A DNA stretch of 64,000 nucleotides from Sclerodactyla briareus. Taxonomy: Eukaryota > Echinodermata > Holothuroidea > Dendrochirotida > Sclerodactylidae. The position numbers and the translations under genes are program-made. Positions 13,081 through 55,689 of this stretch are shown here, piece by piece. The notes below the pieces were generated by a model that saw nothing but the letters and a program-made list of their open reading frames with translations, made no database searches and was not told where the DNA came from. Numbering within the stretch: position 1 is the first letter of the stretch; every line of letters starts with the position of its first letter. Location: positions 62,001 through 126,000 of the forward strand of contig JAODTK010003843.1 of assembly GCA_026419785.1 (NCBI GenBank). The letters are read 5' to 3'.

Positions 13081-14031
13081 TAATAATGGTGGTGGGAACC
13101 TTTTCAGATAACATTAAAATATCTCCTCTGACAAGCTTGTTGTGATTATTTGAATTTTTCAATTTTTTGGTGTCCCCCCCCATTTGTTCCCCCCCTGCTG
13201 CAGTTATGTTGGTCAGTACTGTAGTTCCAAACTACTACATCCATTCATACTGGAATTTAAAATTATTAATCTGGATAATGGAACAGTCTTTTTGTTAGTA
13301 TTAAGTCACTTAACAGAAATTCAGCAATGTCTATCGCGTGTTACAGGGACACCAAATTTTGGGTGCCCCATAACACGCGCCAGATCAAGTTGATCAAACT
13401 CACTCTTGTAAGAAAGATGATGATGAAAACATCACTGATGGACAAGTACAGTGTTCTAATGTCATTATGCATGGAACTTTGGACAAGAATAGTGCCAATT
13501 AAAAACATTGAAAACTGTCAATATGGACAAAACTTCACTTTGTTTATTTTTCCCAATAGAAATGGCTGATATCACAAAACTTGATTTTCAAAAAAGTCAT
13601 CTGCGAAATGTTTTTCTAAAATTTGGGTATAGTTACACCATGCAGCGTTACAAGTTGCACATGAATATGAATATCTATACATTGTGAAGTTTTTTTTATT
13701 TTTTTTCTGACTTCAGAGTGAAAGATGCTTGGGTCCCGTTATGTTGGTAGTTATGTGTAAGGCGGTACCCTTATGCCATGCAATGCATGAATGCAACACG
13801 CCATTTGCATTTTTATAAAGTACTAAAAGTACCCTATCTACAGTAAAATTTCAATCAATAATAATGATTTTGAAATTTTGACCTCATGTCACACTTTTGG
13901 TACCCAGGTTATGACAATGACCATATAATAGCACAGTGCCCCTCTAATGACCTTGACCTTCACAAGGTCAAACATGCCCCATGGGTAAATTATGGAGCCG
14001 AGATAAGAAAGATGAATAGACCAAGACGACG
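13081..14031. other. Gene-free sequence before the tetranucleotide array
   Basis: A fragment at 13880-14010 (TTTGACCTCATG, CCTTGACCTTCACAAGGTCA) is TGACCT-type repeat leading into the GACA run. No exon recognised. Confidence 0.5.
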
Positions 14032-14075
14032 ACAGACAGACAGACAGTCTGACAGACAGACAGACAGACAGACAG

Positions 14076-14162
<87 letters not shown>

Positions 14163-14283
14163 GATAGATAGATGGAGGGATGGATGGATGGATGGATGGA
14201 TGGAGGAGGGATGGAGGAAGGCGGACGGACGGACGGACGGACGGACGGACGGACGGACGGACGGACGGACGGACAGAAAGACC

Positions 14284-14314
<31 letters not shown>

Positions 14315-14341
14315 CACAGGACAGATAGATAGAGAGATGCT
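14032..14341. repeat. Compound tetranucleotide microsatellite
   Basis: Blocks in order: (GACA)n to 14112, (GATA)n to 14171, (GGAT)n with AGG interruptions to about 14220, (GGAC)n to 14273, then (GACA)n again and a short GATA end. Neighbouring blocks differ by one base per unit. Frames open on both strands here are artefacts. Confidence 0.97.
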
Positions 14342-19930: not shown

Positions 19931-20767
19931 TCCACAAAGGCCATTTTTGCGGGGATTGCAGTCGGCTGTTTACCGCACTGCCACATGCCTAGTTTTAAAA
20001 TACGACTTTTTGGCCTGCCCACGATTAAATGTCCCTCGGGCAAGGCGCGTACGAGAGATTGTAGGGGGGAGGGGGGGTGGGGGTGGATTTCGGAACTCGA
20101 GGGAAGTGCGCCCTCATAAATTCCCCACACTCCACCTCCCCCAACCCCATTGGCAAATAAGACAAATCTATGGGCCCCTAGCCGCATGCTGCTGCAATAT
20201 TGCTTAATAACAGCTGCAAAAACTCTACGGAACCGCAGAAAAAATACAGTTTTGTGTGGAATAGTATTGATCACTGGGTCAGGGGGAGGGGGGGGGGGGG
20301 GGGTTATGGACCCCCCGTGGGTACGCGTGCCCTTGGGGTATCTAGGAGTAACACACGACCCTGCTGAAAATGGCATGCATCTTCTCAAATTGTTACCATT
20401 CCCCCATATAAAAATGTTCCCCATTTCTCAGTCCCCATCTCCGGATCTGTCTAGTTAGCACTCCATTAAACCTTCACATAACCCTTACTGATTACTACTG
20501 TGGACAGTGGGCGTAACCGATAACTTGATCTACTGACGGGCGTGTGTGGGTGCAAGGGGGGGGGGGGGGGGCTAAAGGGAGTGCACCCTACGTATAGCCT
20601 CACCCTCCCCATTGGCGAATAAGTACAATTTATTAATATTAATATTATGAATATTTTGTGGGTTACCGATCAGTGTTTTCAGTATATTAGTCAACATGCG
20701 AACAATTACATCTAACTTACATAAGGCATCTAATGAGTTGCTTTTTGTTTTAAGATTCTGGTATTAG
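19931..20767. other. G-run rich repeat region flanking the hAT element
   Basis: Two similar blocks, 20040-20165 and 20520-20632, each with a G run, GTGCRCCCT and CCCATTGGCRAATAAG, about 475 bp apart. A 204-codon minus-strand frame across the G runs is not considered a gene. Confidence 0.5.
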
Positions 20768-22679
20768 CAGGGGCGGCGCTGGCCCACCGGGGGGGGGGGG
20801 CACAGGGGGGCGGTTTTTGCCCCCCTAATGTGGTTTTTTTGGGGGCCCGAAAAAAAAAAAATCGTTTGAACTATGTGTTTAACACACATATTTTCCGTAG
20901 GGGTGGGGTGAGGTGTCTATATATTGTTTACTACTACTATTCATCCTAGTTTGTCGGATTCGAAAATCTTCCGTAAGAGGGGGGGGGGGGGGGGGATGGG
21001 GCACGGTTCCCCCAATCAAATCCTAAGTGAAACATAAAATGTTGTGGTGCTAGTATTTTAACTCTTTTGTCTATGAAAAACCCAATTTTTCGCGCTTCGC
21101 GCGCGTGGCCGTGTTTTTCTTCGTCCGTTTTTATTTCATTTGATCCATGATATCCCACGCATGGATCTAATGTACCAAGAATCAAGATTCACAGATGGGG
21201 TGCCACGTTCCCCCAATCAATCCAGTTTATATCCTAGTTAAAAACCCTAAATCTTCGCTGCGTCACGCACGCCTGTCTGTGTTTTCTTTCTTCGTCAATT
21301 TTCATTTGAACCCATTGCCACGCATCATTTCAGTGACCAAACTAATTCGCGGATTCGAACAAATCTTCGTAGATGGGGGGGCATGTTCACCCGAATCCCC
21401 AAATGAAAAACTGTCTGTGAGTGATAGTTTTTAACAGCTTCCTAAAAAAATACTCAAAAATTTTCGCGCGCTTCGCGCACGCGTGCTTGTGTTTTCTACT
21501 TCAATTTTAATTTTATAGTTATGCCGCGCATGAATCTACCTCAGGTACCGAAATATAGTTTGTCGAATTCGAACAAACCTTCAAAAGTGGGGGCAAGTTC
21601 CCCCAACATATCAAATTATTGTTGGAAGAAACAATGTTGTGGATGATAGGTTTTAACACTTACGTAGAAGAAAAATATACACAATTCCGCGCGCTTCGCG
21701 CCCGAGTGCCTGTGTTTTCTTCGTCAATTTTCATTTGACACGATTAGATGCCAAGCATCATTTTAATGTCCAAACATGAACTTCGGGTTCGAACAAATCT
21801 TCGTAGATGGCGGTGGGGGGGGGCATGCCTAACCCCAAATCTCCAAATGAACCATGTTGTGGTGATAGTTTTTAAACACTTAGTAAATAAAAAAAAACTG
21901 GCAACGATTTTACGCGCGCTTCGCGCGTGTGTGGCGTGCTGTTTTCTGCCAGCAATTTTCCATTTTATTCGATTATATGCCACGCAAGGATCTACTTGTA
22001 CCGAAAATAAAAACAAATAAAAAAAATGTTGTGTGATAGATGTTAACACTTATGTGAGGTAAAAACCCAAAGGTTCGCGCGCTTCGCAAACGCGTGCTGT
22101 GTTTTCTTCGTCAATTTTAATTTTTGACCGATTGTATGACACGAATATATCTACTTTTACGTTGGGGGACTGTCGACTTCAGAGGGGAGGGAGTTCATCA
22201 GTATCGGGGGGACGCATTCCGGCCACCCCCGTCTGCATATTTACTCCAGCGGTTTATTTAGTCCAATAATCGGCAGTGCAAAGTTCAGTACAAAATCTTA
22301 CGCCTGCCGCATAGGCGCACTGTAAGAAAACTGAAGGCCCTAAGGTTCACGATCGAGTGTTTTTTTGTGTATGCTATCAGTTTATTGACTCCTCATGCGG
22401 TCGTGCGGGACGTCGGAGAAATCCCTCGCCATCATAAAGTGAGGAAAATTGTTAAATAAAATACCAATTGATACAAAATGACAGGACAGAAAAGCCAACT
22501 TAAAGATATTTTCAGTGTCGATTGTGAAACGCCCAGAGAGGCGATCTCCTGTCACTGGGAGCTTCAGACGGCCAAAATGTTTGGTTTACGCTCCGCCGCC
22601 AACCGTGGGGCGCTCGCTTGATAGTCAATCAACAAGTTCGCCCCCCCCCCCTTTGTAAAACCCTGGCCCGCCGCCCCTG
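20768..22679. mobile_element. Nonautonomous hAT-type DNA transposon
   Basis: Seen: the left end starts CAGGGGCGGCGCTGG. The right end finishes GGCCCGCCGCCCCTG, whose reverse complement is CAGGGGCGGCGGGCC, so 11 terminal bases match perfectly. The direct repeat GGTATTAG flanks both ends exactly (20760-20767 and 22680-22687). Known: hAT elements have short TIRs, often CAGGGGCGG-like, and make 8-bp target duplications. The element is 1,912 bp. No transposase was recognised inside; a 47-codon frame starting at 22478 is unassigned. Both ends carry long G or C runs and the middle holds a tandem palindrome array. Confidence 0.88.
21080..22110. repeat. Six-copy array of a GC-rich palindrome inside the hAT element
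   Basis: Units contain CGCGCGCTTCGCGC (a hairpin with a CTT loop) followed by CGTG, TGTGTTTTCTTCGTCAATTTT and then a gene-free AT-rich spacer with GTTCGAACAAATCTTCGTAG. Cores lie near 21089, 21250 (degenerate), 21463, 21686, 21910 and 22073, with spacing of about 160-225 bp. Confidence 0.85.
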
Positions 22680-22689
22680 GGTATTAGCA

Positions 22690-24514
22690 TTTGACAGAAA
22701 CCCCTACTTTTCAGTGATCAATTTCAAATCCTAAGGACGATATTGCAATGTCTTACCATATAAGTTTGTGGAAATGTGACTACAATAGCCTAAATTATAC
22801 AAATTAGACAATAATTCAACTTTCTGTTGCCCCTTTTCTCCCTTCATTATCTCAGACACAATTGTGAACACCACAATTATAATTCCTCGGAATTCAAAAA
22901 ACTTGAACATTTGATGAATCAACAGTGCTGGGAGCGAGTCCTCTCAAGTCCGAGTCCGAGTCCGAGTCACAGTGTCCGACGTCCGATGATCGGCTTCCGA
23001 GTCCGAGGCCGAGTCACAGTGTCAGAGTCCGATATAGAGTCCTCGACGAGTCCTTTTGAAAGTTGACTGTACACTATTTTACAAAAATTTAGGGCCAAAC
23101 TTAACACCGCTGTATGTTTGCTATATTATCGCAATGGTTTGAATGCACGGCTACTGATCGACAGTTTACGAATAACGAGAACTTACTTTAGAGTACTGGG
23201 CTGGGTATACCTCATGCATGGGCGTCAACAGGGGGGCGCCCCCCCCCCCCCACTTTTTGATTTGCTTCCCATTGACTTAAACATTTCACACAGTAAAATT
23301 TTGAAAATGTGGCCATATCCCCCCCCCCCCCCTCCCTCCACTTCGAGAGGGTTGGTTGGACGCTCATTACCTCATGAGAAGTGCTAATAACTGATATCAT
23401 AGGTTAATCATGTTAATCGATAGCTGAGATAGTTTAAGGGGCAATAATGGACTATACTTAATTTGGGCCGAAAGAGTTGTCTTGTAGACAAGGACTCCCT
23501 GGACGTTACAGGCACCATTTCCAATATGAAAAGACCAATATTAATTTGAAAATCAAATATCGATTGCCATGCATGACTAGGAATGAAAAGCATAGAGAAT
23601 GAAATTGCTCTCTTCCACATTCATCTACTTTTCTTTTATGGGAGCTTTTTTTCATAATTGAACCCTTCGATTCCCTCCTTGTAAATCACTCTTTACCAAT
23701 TCACATACTTATCAATCTATGACTACCTCACTAGTCGCTTATATATGGCATTGCAACATGAATATAAAATGAGGGACGCGGACGATCAAGAGATATCGAA
23801 AGTGTACTGCAAACGTTCGTGGGGGCAAAAGCAATTGCAACCCCAATGAATTATAGAGAATTACACCGCCTGCCCGGGTAAACTTCCGCCATAATCGATT
23901 TCACATTGATTTACCGTCGGCAGGAAAAGGAAAGTAGAATGCCCAATTGTCAGTTACGATTAAACGAATAGTGAGAAAGACATAGTTAAATGACAGCTGC
24001 AGGATGATTTATACAGGGTGGCTACTTAATAGCTGGAGAAACAACTGAATGCGTCAGTTTAAACCTGAAGTTCACAGGAATTTCGTTCAGAGGTATAGTC
24101 ATTTGAAGTTTGTGTATTGTGAAGCATGTGTATTGCGCAAGATCAAATGAATACCTCATGCAATAATAATTATCATACTTGCACAAACCTGCAAACATTT
24201 TTTGTTTTCTATTTGAAAATTCAACATCGTTTCACTTTCCGCAAAGCATTAAGGCTATGGGAGAGGATGCCTGTTAGTGGGTTGGTAGGGTTGATTGGTG
24301 ACGTTGGTGAGAGAAAGGCAACAATAGAACTTCTGCAAATGTTGATCATTCAAACAAAATGAAAAAATCAAAACATAACTTAATTTCTGTGTTGGTCCCA
24401 TGTGTGACGTCAATGCGTTATTGCGCAATCTGGACTTTCCTCCCTAATTCCTCTGCTTAATGCTCAAACTTGAAGGCCAATAACTCCACTAGGAACATCG
24501 TATCAGGAATCTAC
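22690..24514. other. Gene-free sequence
   Basis: C runs at 23230 and 23321, the GAGTCC repeat, otherwise unremarkable AT-rich DNA without recognised exons. Confidence 0.5.
22949..23055. repeat. Degenerate (GAGTCC)n hexamer repeat
   Basis: AGTCCGAGTCCGAGTCCGAG, then TCACAGTGTCCGACGTCCGA, and a second block GAGTCCGAGGCCGAGTCACA. Two sub-blocks share CCGAGTCACAGTGTC. Confidence 0.85.
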
Positions 24515-42132: not shown

Positions 42133-42398
42133 CTGTATGGATAGGAGAGAATAAAATAACAACCATGAAATAAGCATGTGTAAATGTAGCATGAAATGCA
42201 TTTCATTGAACAAAATGGGAGTCTTAATCATTGTCATTAGGCGAAACAGGACTATCACTCACTATAGACGTGCACTATGACAATGGCTCACCAGGGTTAT
42301 TTTTGGGGTGGGGTGTGAGAGAATTTGATTTGGTTCAGTAAGTAAGCCAATTAAGGCTCATCTAGGAACCCTGGCCATATTGATAATGAATGAGCAAT

Positions 42399-43358
42399 GG
42401 GCACTGGTACTCTGTCACTGGGTCTGGTACTCTCTGTCACTGGGTACCGGTACTCTCTGTCCACTGGGTACTGGTACTCTCTGTCACTGGGCCACTGGTA
42501 CTCTCTGTCACTGGGCAATGGTACTCTCGGTCACTGGGCACTGGTACCTCTGTCACTGGGCACTGGACTCTCTGTCACTGGGCACTGGTACTCTCTGTCA
42601 CTGGGCACCGGTACTCTCTGTCCACTGGGCACTGGTACTCTGTCACTGGGTACTGGTACTCTCTGTCACTGGGCACTGGTACCTCTGTCACTGGGTACTG
42701 TTACTCTCTGTCACTGGGCACTGGACTCTCTGTCACTGGGCACTGGTACCTCTGTCACTGGGCACTGGTACTCTCTGTCACTGGGCACTGGTACTCTCTG
42801 TCCCTGGGCACTGGTACCTCTGTCACTGGGCACTGGTACTCTCTGTCACTCTGGGCACTGGTACTCTCTGTCACTGGGCACCGGTACTCTCTGTCACTGG
42901 GCCTGGTACTCTCTGTCCACTGGCACCGGTACTCTCTCTGTCCTGGGCTGATCCTCTCTGTCATGTATACTGATACTCTGTCACTGGGTAACTGATACTC
43001 TCGCACTGGGTACTGTACTCTCTTCACTGTGTACTGGTACTGCCTGTCACGGGGTACTGATACTCTCTGTCACTGGGTACTGATACTCTCTGTCACTGGG
43101 TAAACGGTACTCCTGTGCCCTGGGTACTGTTTACTCGCTGTCACTGGGTCTGGTACTCTCTGTCACTGGGCACTGATACTCTCTGTCACTGGTAACAGGT
43201 ACTCTCTGTCACGTGGTACCGGTACTCTCTGTCACTGGGTAACTGGATATTCTCTGTCACTGGGCACTGATACTCTCTGTCACTCGGTACTGATACTCCC
43301 TGTCACTGGGTCTGGTACTCTCTGTCACGGGGTACTGGTACTCTCTGCCACTGGGTAA
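42399..43358. repeat. Minisatellite, unit about 23 bp, roughly 40 copies
   Basis: Unit form CACTGGTACTCTCTGTCACT then GGG, with frequent 1-2-base losses and C/T or G/A variants; more variable after 42950. It occupies most of the 1,324-bp B56 intron 42133-43456. Three overlapping plus-strand frames of 184-201 codons and two minus frames are products of the repeat, not genes. Confidence 0.97.
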
Positions 43359-44289: not shown

Positions 44290-45365
44290 ATAGCTACACA
44301 GAATTCCAAGGACTTCAGACTTTGACCTCTGGTGACCTCTGACCTGACCCTAAAACAATAGGGTTCATGTACTCATCATGGGGAACACACATACCAAGTA
44401 TGAGCTTCATCCATCCAGGTGGGGTCGAGTTATCGTGTTCACAAGCCAAGTTGGCCAAATTATTGACTTTTCACAAATTTTCTATTTTGACCAAAATTCA
44501 CCCCGACCATACAAAAACAACAGGGTTCCTGTACTCCCCATAAGAAAGCTACATACCATATTTGAACCCGATTAGACCAACCATTCTGGACTTACCGCGT
44601 TCACAAGGTTTCAGACTTTGACCTCTGGTGACCTCAGATGACCTCTGACCTGACCCTAAAACAATAGGGTTCATGTACTCATCATGGGGAACACACATAC
44701 CAAGTATGAGCTTCATCCATCAGGTGGGGTCGAGTTATCGTGTTCACAAGCCAAGTTGGCCAAATTATGACTTTTCACAAATTTTCTATTTTGACCAAAA
44801 TTCACCCCGACCTATCCACCAAAAACAACCAGGGTTCCTGTACTCCCCATAAGAAAGCTACATACCATATTTGAACCCGATTAGACCAACCATTCTGGAC
44901 TTACCGCGTTCACAAGGTTTTTCAGACTTTGACCTCTGGTGACCTCTGACCTGACCCTAAAACAATAGGGTTCATGTACTCATCATGGGGAACACACATA
45001 CCAAGTATGAGCTTCATCCATCCAGGTGAGATCGAGTTATCGTGTTCACAAGCCAAGTTGGCCAAATTATTGACTTTTCACAAATTTTCTATTTTCGACC
45101 AAAATTCACCCCGACCAATACCAAAAACAATAGGGTTCCTGTACTGCCCATAAGAAAGTACACACCAAATTTGAACCCGATCAGACCAACCATTCTGGAC
45201 TTATCGTGTTCACGAGGTTTTCAGACTTTGACCTCTGGTGACCTCAGATGACCTCTGACCTGACCCTAAAACAATAGGGTTCATGTACTCATCATGGGGA
45301 ACACACATACCAAGTATGAGCTTCATCCATCAGGTGGGGTCGAGTTATTGTGTTCACAAGCCAGG
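44290..45365. repeat. Tandem array, unit about 300 bp, 3.5 copies
   Basis: The landmark CAGACTTTGACCTCTGGTGA occurs at 44316, 44612, 44933 and 45222 (spacings 296, 321 and 289). Each unit has CCTAAAACAATAGGGTTCAT, ACACATACCAAGTATGAGCT, GGGGTCGAGTTATCGTGTTC and ACTTTTCACAAATTTTC. It lies in the B56 intron between the exons at 43507 and 46374. Confidence 0.92.
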
Positions 45366-52661: not shown

Positions 52662-54969
52662 TTCCATTCAACATACAAACCATGTTCACAGACTAAAACA
52701 AATTCATGAACGATGTCTTTCATAAATACTTCTGGGCAGCAAGGAGAGCGGGCAGCTAGAAACTTTTACTGAATGCAGGGCTCTTCTGAAGATTTTGCTT
52801 CTAGTTTGTTCCCTTGGGTTGTTTCCTAGTTTACAGTTCATAGTTGGGTTTGTAACTCGATGTTGGACGACAAACTGACATATCAGGACAACCGTAATGA
52901 ACAGCAGGATGAACATAAAATCAGATCCAAGACCAATGTCTTCATCTGGTTGAAAACCTTAGTCTATTTTACCCCCGAATTTGGCTTCATATAATGAGGA
53001 CCATACAGAATGTGCCCTACAGCAAGGTCTGCATGGGAGCCCATGCTGGGTTGGTCTTGGTTAGAAACTTTCAATTATTGCACCAATCCTTCAGACCGAT
53101 GTTCAGCCAGTAGGCACAATGGCTCTTGGGAATTTCCCTGTGTGGTGTCACAGGGAACCACAGGGTTCCCTGTAGAACAGAGCCGTGTCAAGCGTACTTT
53201 TAGAACCAGAAAAATGGGGATCTGAATGAATTTTTTTTGGGAGAGTCATGAAGATTCAAAAATTTCTCATTTATTTCTTTGTGAATATCTCTTTGGCCTT
53301 TGTTACAAGGCACAAACTTGTCAGTATTCTTTTGAGGCACCCTTTCTCTTCCTCCATGAAATTTCTCAATTCAATTGGAATTCTTCGATAAGGGCAAACA
53401 TGCTAGGTCTCCAGATGTGGGGTGTGATTGACATGTCCTCTCTCTTTTATTACCTGTGCTAGTCCAAGAGATTCTGTTACATGACCATAGGAACTCAAAC
53501 AACACAACCTTTATGTGTTAAACAGAACGTATCGATGCCTCGATAATGACCCATTCTGGGTTATCTGATCAGACAAGTACAATGGCAATGGAATGAAGTC
53601 TCTTTGAAACTTCATTCAGCCTTTGAAATTTTCGAGGACATAGCATCAATGTTAGTGAAAATAATGCCAGTGATGGATTAGATCATCTCAAAAGAATTTC
53701 ATCAATGACAGCACTCGAATCATTTTCTATTTTGGTAAAATGGTCAGCGATTTTAAAGAAGCCTGCCGGCCGCACCAATGTAATTCGTTCTTCCACATGG
53801 ACCTATTTCCACAAACATTACAATTTTGACCTAATACTAATTTGTTTCAACAGATTCTTGTTCAATTGTAGGCTTCAATCATTCCAACACAATAGATTAC
53901 TACAGTATGGTAGCTTCGTGGCTGGAAGAGAAGACACAGCTGAGATACATGTCAGAAGCCCATACCAAAAATTTGGAAATGTAGCATGAAGTGTACCTTG
54001 TATAATTATCCAAAATTCACCCGGATTAATTACGTCACATGTGAAGCCCGCTATAAATATGACTTTGATTGAAGGTTGTCGCATGGACTCTGGGCACAGT
54101 AAATGCTGCCATTCACTGAGAAAATGACATTTTTTCATAACTTGTGATCATTTGTGTGAGTTTTTATTCCTATACCTTTTTAGTTGTAGTTGCGGTTTTC
54201 GAAGTTTATGCTTCGCATTATCTTTGATTCGGCAGGCTCCTGCAGTCCTTTTGTGACATCACAAGCATATTTCACATAATCAGATGGACCCATCTTAAAC
54301 TTGTTATGGGCTAAATATGGTATGAGTTCAAATGTCCTTGATGTGCTCAATGGACGGTATCTAACAAGGCTGCAGATCCTTCTTCATTTCAGGGCTACTT
54401 TCCATTAACTTTGCCCCTATAACCCTTTTTTTTTCTGAAATTTCAGCGGCTAATATGATATTTTCAGGGTTTTGATCATTCCAGAGGTGATCACCCTTCC
54501 ACACTGTATTTACCCCCTGGTATCAAGTGATCGGCAAATCACTAAATGTATGACAATCATAACATTAAAGACACACAAAGACTGCTGCGTCACTAGTGTC
54601 ATGGATAAAATAATGTGACAGTCCCCCATATCAGGACTCAGTTTTTCTCACCTCCCCTAATATTCTAATGTCGAGAACCTGCTAGGTCACTCAAGCTGTT
54701 TTGCAATGCATGTCTAGTTTTTGGTTTTGAATGTAGTGAATGACCCCACATAGGGGCCATAACAACACTACTGTTGCACATGCCTGCATTACATCGAATA
54801 CTGGCAAAACATACCACATGACTATTACCCCTTCCTCTGCATTGTGGGGTGCATGGGGAAGGCTTACCTAAGGATTGCAACTACCAGAAATGAGATATTC
54901 GGACAATACACCACACCTGGCAATTTCTTTTTTTTAAACTTCTATCGAAGATTTTCATAGTGTACTCAC

Positions 54970-55092
54970 CTATAGAATATATTGTTGATTGCTTCCGATA
55001 TTGCCCGGAGGCCAAGGATTGCCATAACATCTTCAGGGTGGTTTTTACGAAATCCCTCTCTCTTGGGTTCTTCACTGTCAACAGTTCTAAAT
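54970..55092 (-). CDS. PPP2R5: PP2A B56 subunit, exon 2 of the visible part
   Basis: Seen: acceptor gtcaccccag, donor TATAG|gtgagt. The frame PRERDFVKTTLK is exact. The start (L-E-L-F-D-S-E) and the end (I-N-N-I-F-Y-R) lie in other frames. Reconciling them with the family needs about nine single-base events, nearly all losses: a T in the TTTA and TTTG runs, an A in AAAT, a C in CCGG and others. Exon length is 123 nt against about 131 expected, matching the count of inferred losses. Known: this is the strongly conserved L-F-D-S-E-D-P-R-E-R-D-F block of all B56 proteins. It ends in phase 2, as in vertebrate genes. Confidence 0.93.
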
Positions 55093-55689
55093 CTGGGGTG
55101 ACGAAAGAATGCAGATAAGGACTCCATGATAGGAAATTTTTACTGATTGAAAATAACATAAGTTTATCCCATAATTTGGAACAACATTTGAGTGTAGAAA
55201 TTCCCTCCAGCCACAAATGTGTTATATTAGTAGGGATTCCATTGACGTTATATAGTGGAGAAAATTTGATAATGCCACATAGTGTTTGGCAATTGTGCCA
55301 TATGTTATAATATGACAAACTGCATTTAAAACCCTCAACTGTGCATCCTGTCGTATGTAGACAGTGTTTCAAGATGAATATCAATCTGGAGGATGTTCTC
55401 CTAACTTTTGGAGATTTGCCCATCGATTTACTTAACACACAGTAAAGGTGGAAGTCAGTCCCTACACAATGAATCCAGCTCTATTATGCAGTGTTTTCAC
55501 CATCCTGTTTAAACAGGCTTATGCAAACCATTGCATATTGAATGCCCCACATACTAGTAGCAGCAAATAGGCAATGAAGACTGAAACTTACACTTGGGTT
55601 TTTCTGGTTGTGTTTCAACAAGTATGTTATGTCTCAACCAGAAACCAAGACCCTTGAATTCCTGACTGCTTGAATGATTGTTGACCAAG

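Follow-up and report, generated by a model that had tools for sequence, protein, structure and literature searches.

The window analysed here is a stretch of 64,000 nucleotides from the holothurian Sclerodactyla briareus (GenBank assembly GCA_026419785.1, contig JAODTK010003843.1, positions 62,001 to 126,000 of the forward strand), and the subject of this report is a transposable element at window positions 20768–22679, very probably a non-autonomous member of the hAT superfamily, which carries a tandem array of ~220-bp units in its interior. The element is 1912 bp long and lies between two copies of the 8-bp GGTATTAG, exact at both 20760–20767 and 22680–22687. It begins with CAGGGGCGGCG (20768–20778) and ends with the exact reverse complement of this sequence (22669–22679), with no other occurrence in the window; 11 bp of the terminal inverted repeat are kept in this copy. 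A sequence-only reading of the window had proposed a perfect 8-bp target duplication and shared inverted-repeat ends, and both were confirmed, the former also by empty sites that show one target. Features were assigned as follows, in window coordinates.

20760–20767, forward strand: left target site duplication GGTATTAG, present as a single copy at 14/14 fetched paralogous empty sites.
20768–20778, forward strand: left terminal inverted repeat CAGGGGCGGCG (family consensus CAGGGGCGGCGCCA).
20768–20935, forward strand: 5' part of the element, G-rich, without array, partly common to sister families.
20927–21016, forward strand: first partial unit (model positions 127–202), without hairpin.
21039–21217, forward strand: array unit 1, palindrome at 21090 with one base changed.
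21236–21394, forward strand: array unit 2, palindrome degenerate.
21416–21607, forward strand: array unit 3, exact palindrome at 21466–21478.
21634–21830, forward strand: array unit 4, exact palindrome at 21689–21701.
21854–22010, forward strand: array unit 5, exact palindrome at 21914–21926.
22026–22160, forward strand: array unit 6, truncated at model position 137, one palindrome arm broken.
22141–22679, forward strand: 3' part of the element, conserved better within the family than any other part, with no recognised protein domain.
22574–22615, forward strand: 3' subterminal block, consensus CCAAAAATTTTCTGGTACGCTCCGCGC, resembling the hairpin core of the unit.
22669–22679, reverse strand: right terminal inverted repeat.
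22680–22687, forward strand: right target site duplication GGTATTAG.

A single head-to-tail array separates the ~170-bp 5' part from the ~520-bp 3' part. Six spaced palindromes joined to a common downstream sequence had been described at first sight; the real repeat is a ~220-bp unit in six head-to-tail copies, of which the palindrome plus the following TGTTTTC... stretch makes up about one quarter. Six units are indeed present, but the 13-mer palindrome GCGCGCTTCGCGC is exact only three times (21466, 21689 and 21914), and the remaining palindromes have one mismatch (21090), two mismatches (22077) or, in the second unit, are degenerate. The common downstream sequence TGTTTTCTTCGTCAATTTT is likewise exact only twice (21713 and 22100), and is matched with at most four mismatches in five of the six units. 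No open frame of 150 amino acids (aa) was found in the window element. The consensus of the 3' part contains two open stretches in one frame, one of 109 aa and a second that is open to the end, and neither gave a Pfam match.

Family members were collected from the genome (319 Mb, 3171 contigs) using the element as query. Forty of 230 candidates were scored, the 114 matches were grouped into 40 places, and the 39 other loci were fetched. Other copies with the same ends, which the sequence-only reading had proposed to look for, were thus obtained, and array-bearing copies in the genome number at least 50. Element boundaries were seen as an abrupt rise in substitutions per column at the terminal repeat, from ~0.1 to ~0.6 on the right and from ~0.2 to ~0.5 or more on the left, and the family terminal consensus was CAGGGGCGGCGCCA on both sides. 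With ends set by the alignment, the flanking 8-mers agreed with at most one mismatch in 8/40 copies, compared with 1/1560 left/right pairings between different copies. With ends set by motif and allowed to shift by up to three bases, both ends were located in 32/40 copies, of which eight had a perfect duplication (0/992 pairings) and 21 had at most one mismatch (13/992 pairings).

Array length is variable in the family, as had been anticipated: the 40 copies contain 3–15 hairpin-region units (median 6, and 6 in the window), and one further copy contains 19. This longest array seen is on contig C1434 (L178:5357 to L169:4080, the count being taken over two overlapping loci) and is flanked by the perfect 8-bp duplication GCCAGGTG. 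The limits of the array are common to nearly all copies, with the first partial unit present in 35/40 and the last unit stopping at model position 135–162 in 39/40. A search of the genome with the unit alone was also performed; 40 of 373 candidates were scored, 10 extra loci were fetched and at least six unit-bearing places were left unfetched. The 3' part of the element was present at 10/10 of the extra loci fetched, and no free unit array without the element was found among them.

Empty sites were identified by joining both flanks with one target copy and running the product against the genome, with 40 of 925 candidates scored. Besides both halves of the window site itself, these best 40 included 38 further places at which the match runs across the site; the element therefore landed in an abundant older repeat. 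Of the 38 places 14 were fetched, and all 14 showed a single target, 0 bp inserted and an uninterrupted repeat, in agreement with what the sequence-only reading had led one to expect. The target was exact GGTATTAG in nine of them and had one base changed or missing in five. The host repeat (window 20640–20767 and 22688–22799) is an abundant dispersed repeat, ~78–88% identical to the flanks in the 14 fetched copies.

The perfect duplication had also been taken as a sign of recent movement, and this part of the proposal was not upheld. Divergence of the 3' part from the consensus averaged 9.0% (range 3.0–15.3%, 40 copies), and the window copy, at 11.7%, ranks 34 of 40 in divergence; its perfect duplication is therefore no sign of recent movement. 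The window copy is an old, decaying member of the family.

Growth of the array was analysed by comparing 233 units from the 40 copies, using a unit profile of 203 positions of the ~220 bp. The nearest unit in another element was again a first unit for 29/40 first units, a second unit for 25/38 second units and a last unit for 32/40 last units, and the mean distance between elements was 0.188 for last–last and 0.292 for first–last comparisons. As a first, second or last unit mostly has its closest counterpart at the corresponding position of another copy, the array was inherited as an ordered set and was present before the family spread. Mean unit distance was 0.226 within elements and 0.239 between elements, and the nearest unit of all was in the same element for 46/233 units, with 5.7 expected. 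In one copy (L136) ten of 14 scored units are within 5% of one another, and block periodicity was two-unit in L135 and three-unit in L161. Some copies have grown in their interior by one to three units at a time, for which unequal exchange or replication-coupled tandem duplication would be the simplest mechanism. The palindrome slippage suggested earlier does not describe a ~220-bp unit that multiplies in such blocks. Units within the window copy differ from one another by 22–39%, and the window array is therefore old. The family forms a clear series in one genome: its copies have common array limits, the end units are conserved, and expansions by one, two and three units are seen in single copies. 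The growth steps can therefore be read directly; new satellite DNA has been proposed to arise, among other sources, from tandem arrays inside short DNA transposons.

Related elements were found through the terminal consensus. CAGGGGCGGCGCCA occurs exactly at 439 places in the genome and at one in a backwards control. Of the 439 places 100 were listed, giving at least 14 convergent end pairs; 13 were fetched, and the 14th (contig C970) is L163 of the array family. Two of the 13 (L200 and L204) are members of the array family, and 11 have related ends, other interiors and no array. A duplication with at most one mismatch was present in three of these 13 end-picked elements (L194, L201 and L202). 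Five of the array-less elements (L196, L197, L201, L203 and L205) make up family B, whose members are non-autonomous, 1.6–1.9 kb long and bounded by the same hAT ends; the 8-bp duplication of L201 is perfect. A palindrome within one mismatch is centrally placed in four of the five members of B (L196, L197, L201 and L203) and was lost in L205. None within one mismatch was found in L193, L194, L195, L198, L199 and L202, and it is absent in all from 7/11 array-less relatives. Four of these elements (L193, L194, L199 and L202), array-less, with the same ends and without the palindrome, are mutually related over their 3' halves.

The core of family B reads AAATTTTCGCGCGCTTCGCGCGCAGTG or close to it, and a 28-column core is 91% identical compared with a mean of 74%, a level reached by 2% of alignment windows. 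No alignment beyond a core of ~24 bp was obtained between the unit and the interiors of B. The 21-mer ATTTTCGCGCGCTTCGCGCGC was found at 37 exact places in the genome and at none in the control. Nine of the 37 belong to the known array family (two placed by the unit search only) and one to B; the 27 newly fetched places comprise eight array units, two members of B and 17 others. By BLAST links the 17 fall into a third family, C (nine), a fourth family (four) and four unplaced loci. Seven of the nine C loci match the array-family 3' end model 250–350 bp downstream on the same strand, and three of these seven end in GACGCCCCTG; the 5' ends of C lie beyond the fetched stretches. The fourth family (L227, L229, L232 and L221) has the exact 21-mer, and no ends could be recognised for it within the 1-kb stretches. 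As the C loci were picked by exact match, conservation of their core is not countable; for B, whose loci were selected only by their ends, it is. The families that contain ATTTTCGCGCGCTTCGCGCGC and have the same or related ends number at least three. The corresponding module, AAAATTTTCGCGCGCTTCGCGCGC, lies inside each array unit and occurs once per element in some sister families, and this GC-rich palindromic module recurring across related families appears to be what is new here.

The connection to hAT was made through the ends and through a protein domain. hAT terminal inverted repeats begin with CAG. They are short, 10–25 bp (PMC3942097). PF05699, the hAT dimerisation region, was matched 38 times in the genome and not once in 14 control genomes. 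Downstream stretches were fetched for eight of the 38; five of these match the 3' end of B with E values of 3e-12 to 4e-16, and three of the five end in CCGCCCCTG. In L239 a different part of B is matched (E 2e-5), and the remaining two (L237 and L238) gave no match to the family models. The 3'-end match to B was obtained in 0 of 320 dinucleotide shuffles and in 0 of 8 reversed stretches. Two PF05699 elements could be extended, to 1527 and 1543 bp, and both (2/2) have perfect 8-bp duplications, the left end CAGTGGCGGC and, read inward, the right end CAGGGGCGG; by coordinates the PF05699 stretch falls within each. In one of them the open frame matches PF05699 with 30.1 bits (cut-off 21.4, E 4e-7). 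Neither extended element contains a palindrome within one mismatch, and no intact transposase was seen among the PF05699 elements fetched. Literature containing CAGGGGCGG was unrelated by title among the matches listed. In the eight copies with good duplications T was found at target position 2 in 5/8 and A at position 7 in 5/8. By duplication length, ends and, in two steps, a transposase domain, the array family is therefore tied to hAT, and the proposal of a non-autonomous hAT element is supported by the sister families as well.

Several results weigh against this assignment or against a role for the hairpin. With alignment-set ends at least three target-duplication mismatches were counted in 29/40 copies; 12 of these 29 reach at most one mismatch with sliding ends and the rest do not, and the array-family members L200 and L204 have seven and six mismatches. 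The array family itself yielded no transposase domain; it connects to a transposase in two steps, through its ends to B and through the 3' end of B to the coding elements. These are only ~1.5 kb long, and their left end CAGTGGCGGC is one base off. In a flank control using the first 600 bases at the 40 array loci, L138 (31 bits) and L130 (16 bits) match B; the L138 stretch includes the element start, L130 is unexplained, and the next best score was below 3 bits. The target consensus is nTnnnnAn for Ac and nnnTAnnn for Buster, and the window target fits neither exactly. Within the array, substitution in the palindrome columns (0.13–0.17) is like that in the rest of the unit (mean distance to consensus 0.145). 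The palindrome being no better conserved than the rest, the array itself gives no sign that the hairpin matters.

Taking these points together with the evidence above, we assign a probability of about 0.88 to a non-autonomous hAT-superfamily transposon, inserted in an older repeat, that carries an inherited array of ~220-bp units later expanded internally. The element would have been moved in trans by a hAT transposase recognising CAGGGGCGGCGCCA-type ends. It landed in a copy of the older dispersed repeat and duplicated 8 bp, as the empty sites show. The array was already present at the time of the family's spread; some copies then gained interior blocks of one to three units, in the pattern seen among them, presumably by unequal exchange or replication-coupled duplication. 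The module AAAATTTTCGCGCGCTTCGCGCGC may be, or may once have been, a protein-binding site, conceivably for the BED/DNA-binding domain of the transposase.

The palindrome was further analysed for conservation and for structure. GCTTCGC is retained in 84/233 units and the 13-mer GCGCGCTTCGCGC in 35/233; the 13-mer was not found in the literature searched. Stem covariation was scored at eight pair positions over the 233 units. The two outer positions do not pair, and the six inner pairs gave counts 0.3–1.8 standard deviations above shuffled means, except for one at 2.9 standard deviations (132 compared with a mean of 123.6, the maximum of 300 shuffles being 133). Changes on both sides of the stem amount to ~10 cells in all, a weak signal that may reflect relatedness. 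Folding of the six window hairpin regions was compared with 200 dinucleotide shuffles, and gave a best z of −1.47 (12/200 as good) and a worst of +0.87. A hairpin acting as an RNA or cruciform structure was not adopted as an explanation on these data, the pair excess being slight, with ~10 double changes, and folding not being clearly above shuffles. CpG decay was rejected as the cause of palindrome loss, as there was no consistent excess: C to T was 0.064 at CpG and 0.084 elsewhere, and G to A was 0.110 at CpG and 0.041 elsewhere. The unit core was matched as well to the 3' subterminal block by 4/2000 dinucleotide shuffles, and the whole unit by 10/2000; this likeness was the best of eight comparisons and is only suggestive. 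The bottom strand of the core reads GCGAAGC, known as an unusually stable DNA mini-hairpin, and any bearing of this on the array palindrome would be hypothetical.

As to what the array is for, on balance we lean towards selective neutrality, with a chance founder duplication, a unit number varied by unequal exchange and a palindrome without a role. This would account for the lack of extra conservation in the array palindrome and for the near absence of paired changes. The block duplications are as unequal exchange predicts, most fetched array-less relatives (7/11) do without the palindrome, and internal arrays of miniature inverted-repeat transposable elements (MITEs) are described in a review as changing copy number by recombination and microhomology (PMC12628747). 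Neutrality leaves unexplained, however, that the same 21-mer is found in at least three families with unalignable interiors.

An array of amplified transposase-binding sites, a use that the sequence-only reading had raised for the palindromes, in which the module binds BED domains of the hAT transposase, copies with more units move better and selection grows the arrays, would explain that recurrence, but we regard it as unlikely; a neutral array is, we think, more than twice as likely. In its favour the module recurs in the array units, in B (4/5 members), in C and, weakly, in the 3' subterminal block, and the 28-column core of B stands out at 91% from its 74% mean. In Hermes the BED domains bind a palindromic subterminal repeat pair cooperatively (PMC10368747). 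Among hAT-derived CGG-binding proteins the usual preference is for CGG or CGC, with GCGC preferred by several from coelacanth, and the motifs of four hAT-encoded proteins match subterminal regions of their own elements (PMC8097297); for Tetris and Galileo a like scenario has been put forward to explain their repeats (PMC4079207). Against it, the module within one mismatch is absent from 7/11 array-less relatives and from the two coding elements, GCTTCGC is kept in only 84/233 units, and the window palindromes lie ~320–1310 bp from the left end. For Hermes, extra transposases bound inside the ends were judged unlikely to support transposition (PMC10368747). The recurring module makes the idea that the array consists of multiplied transposase-binding sites directly testable.

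More doubtful still is the wider proposal that the ~25-bp module AAAATTTTCGCGCGCTTCGCGCGC would be an internal site for part of a hAT transposase clade, or for domesticated host proteins, kept across several families in which the sequence around it has turned over, and multiplied in one family to as many as 19 copies as a transposase landing platform; if this were true, a hAT element would have amplified its binding sites selfishly. It is very improbable that the array is a satellite, captured or stand-alone, lying by chance in some elements, for all that the ~220-bp unit is satellite-like and reaches a copy number of 19, given the 3' part at 10/10 extra unit loci fetched (best 40 of 373 candidates) and the common array limits (first partial unit in 35/40, end at model position 135–162 in 39/40).

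Elsewhere in the window, 24 open stretches were compared with Pfam and no credible gene was found. A match to PF05413 (closterovirus peptidase) on a 199-aa open stretch at 54881–55480 of the reverse strand (E 7e-5, 23.5 bits, cut-off 22.4) was set aside as probably due to chance. Rfam and tRNA scans of the window found nothing. A scan of viral contigs for CGCGCTTCGCGCGC gave at least 120 stretches. Three tandem arrays lie apart from the element: a compound tetranucleotide array (GACA, AGAT, GATG and GGAC) of ~300 bp at 14031–14337; a 23-bp minisatellite, also with a 45-bp period, of ~42 copies with several reading frames open at 42398–43357; and a 309-bp unit array of 3.4 copies with 92% matches at 44323–45363.

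Comparison with known systems was made by literature descriptions. A combined literature search naming sea urchin gave no match, and in the available text on array-carrying DNA transposons none was assigned to hAT. Variable ~220-bp arrays in non-autonomous DNA transposons are already known from Tetris, and miDNA4 shows the same idea. Tetris of Drosophila virilis is like the array family in being non-autonomous with variable ~220-bp internal tandem repeats, 8–10 bp target duplications and no apparent coding capacity (PMC4079207). It differs in that its repeats are within long foldback-type inverted repeats, whereas the array family has inverted repeats of ~14 bp and a single central array; its authors suggest Mutator, and its repeats also occur as free satellite-like arrays (PMC4079207), whereas no free array was found here among the loci fetched. 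A foldback element of the Tetris type was rejected for the array family, in which the inverted repeats are ~14 bp and the array occurs once, head to tail. miDNA4 of Xenopus is a MITE whose satellite-like monomer occurs either singly or as a variable array, but it belongs to Tc1/mariner, not hAT, and such arrays can become free satellite (PMC12628747, PMC9659126). The BuT2-derived MITE-like hAT elements share short terminal inverted repeats and 8-bp duplications and are deletion derivatives with the ends of coding hAT elements, but no internal array is described in the available part of that account (PMC3942097). Hermes likewise has a short palindromic motif in a hAT element, protein-binding there and putatively so here; in Hermes the palindrome falls within the left end's first 27 bp and its phasing is rigid (PMC10368747), whereas in the array family the putative module lies far inside the element and is repeated every ~220 bp.

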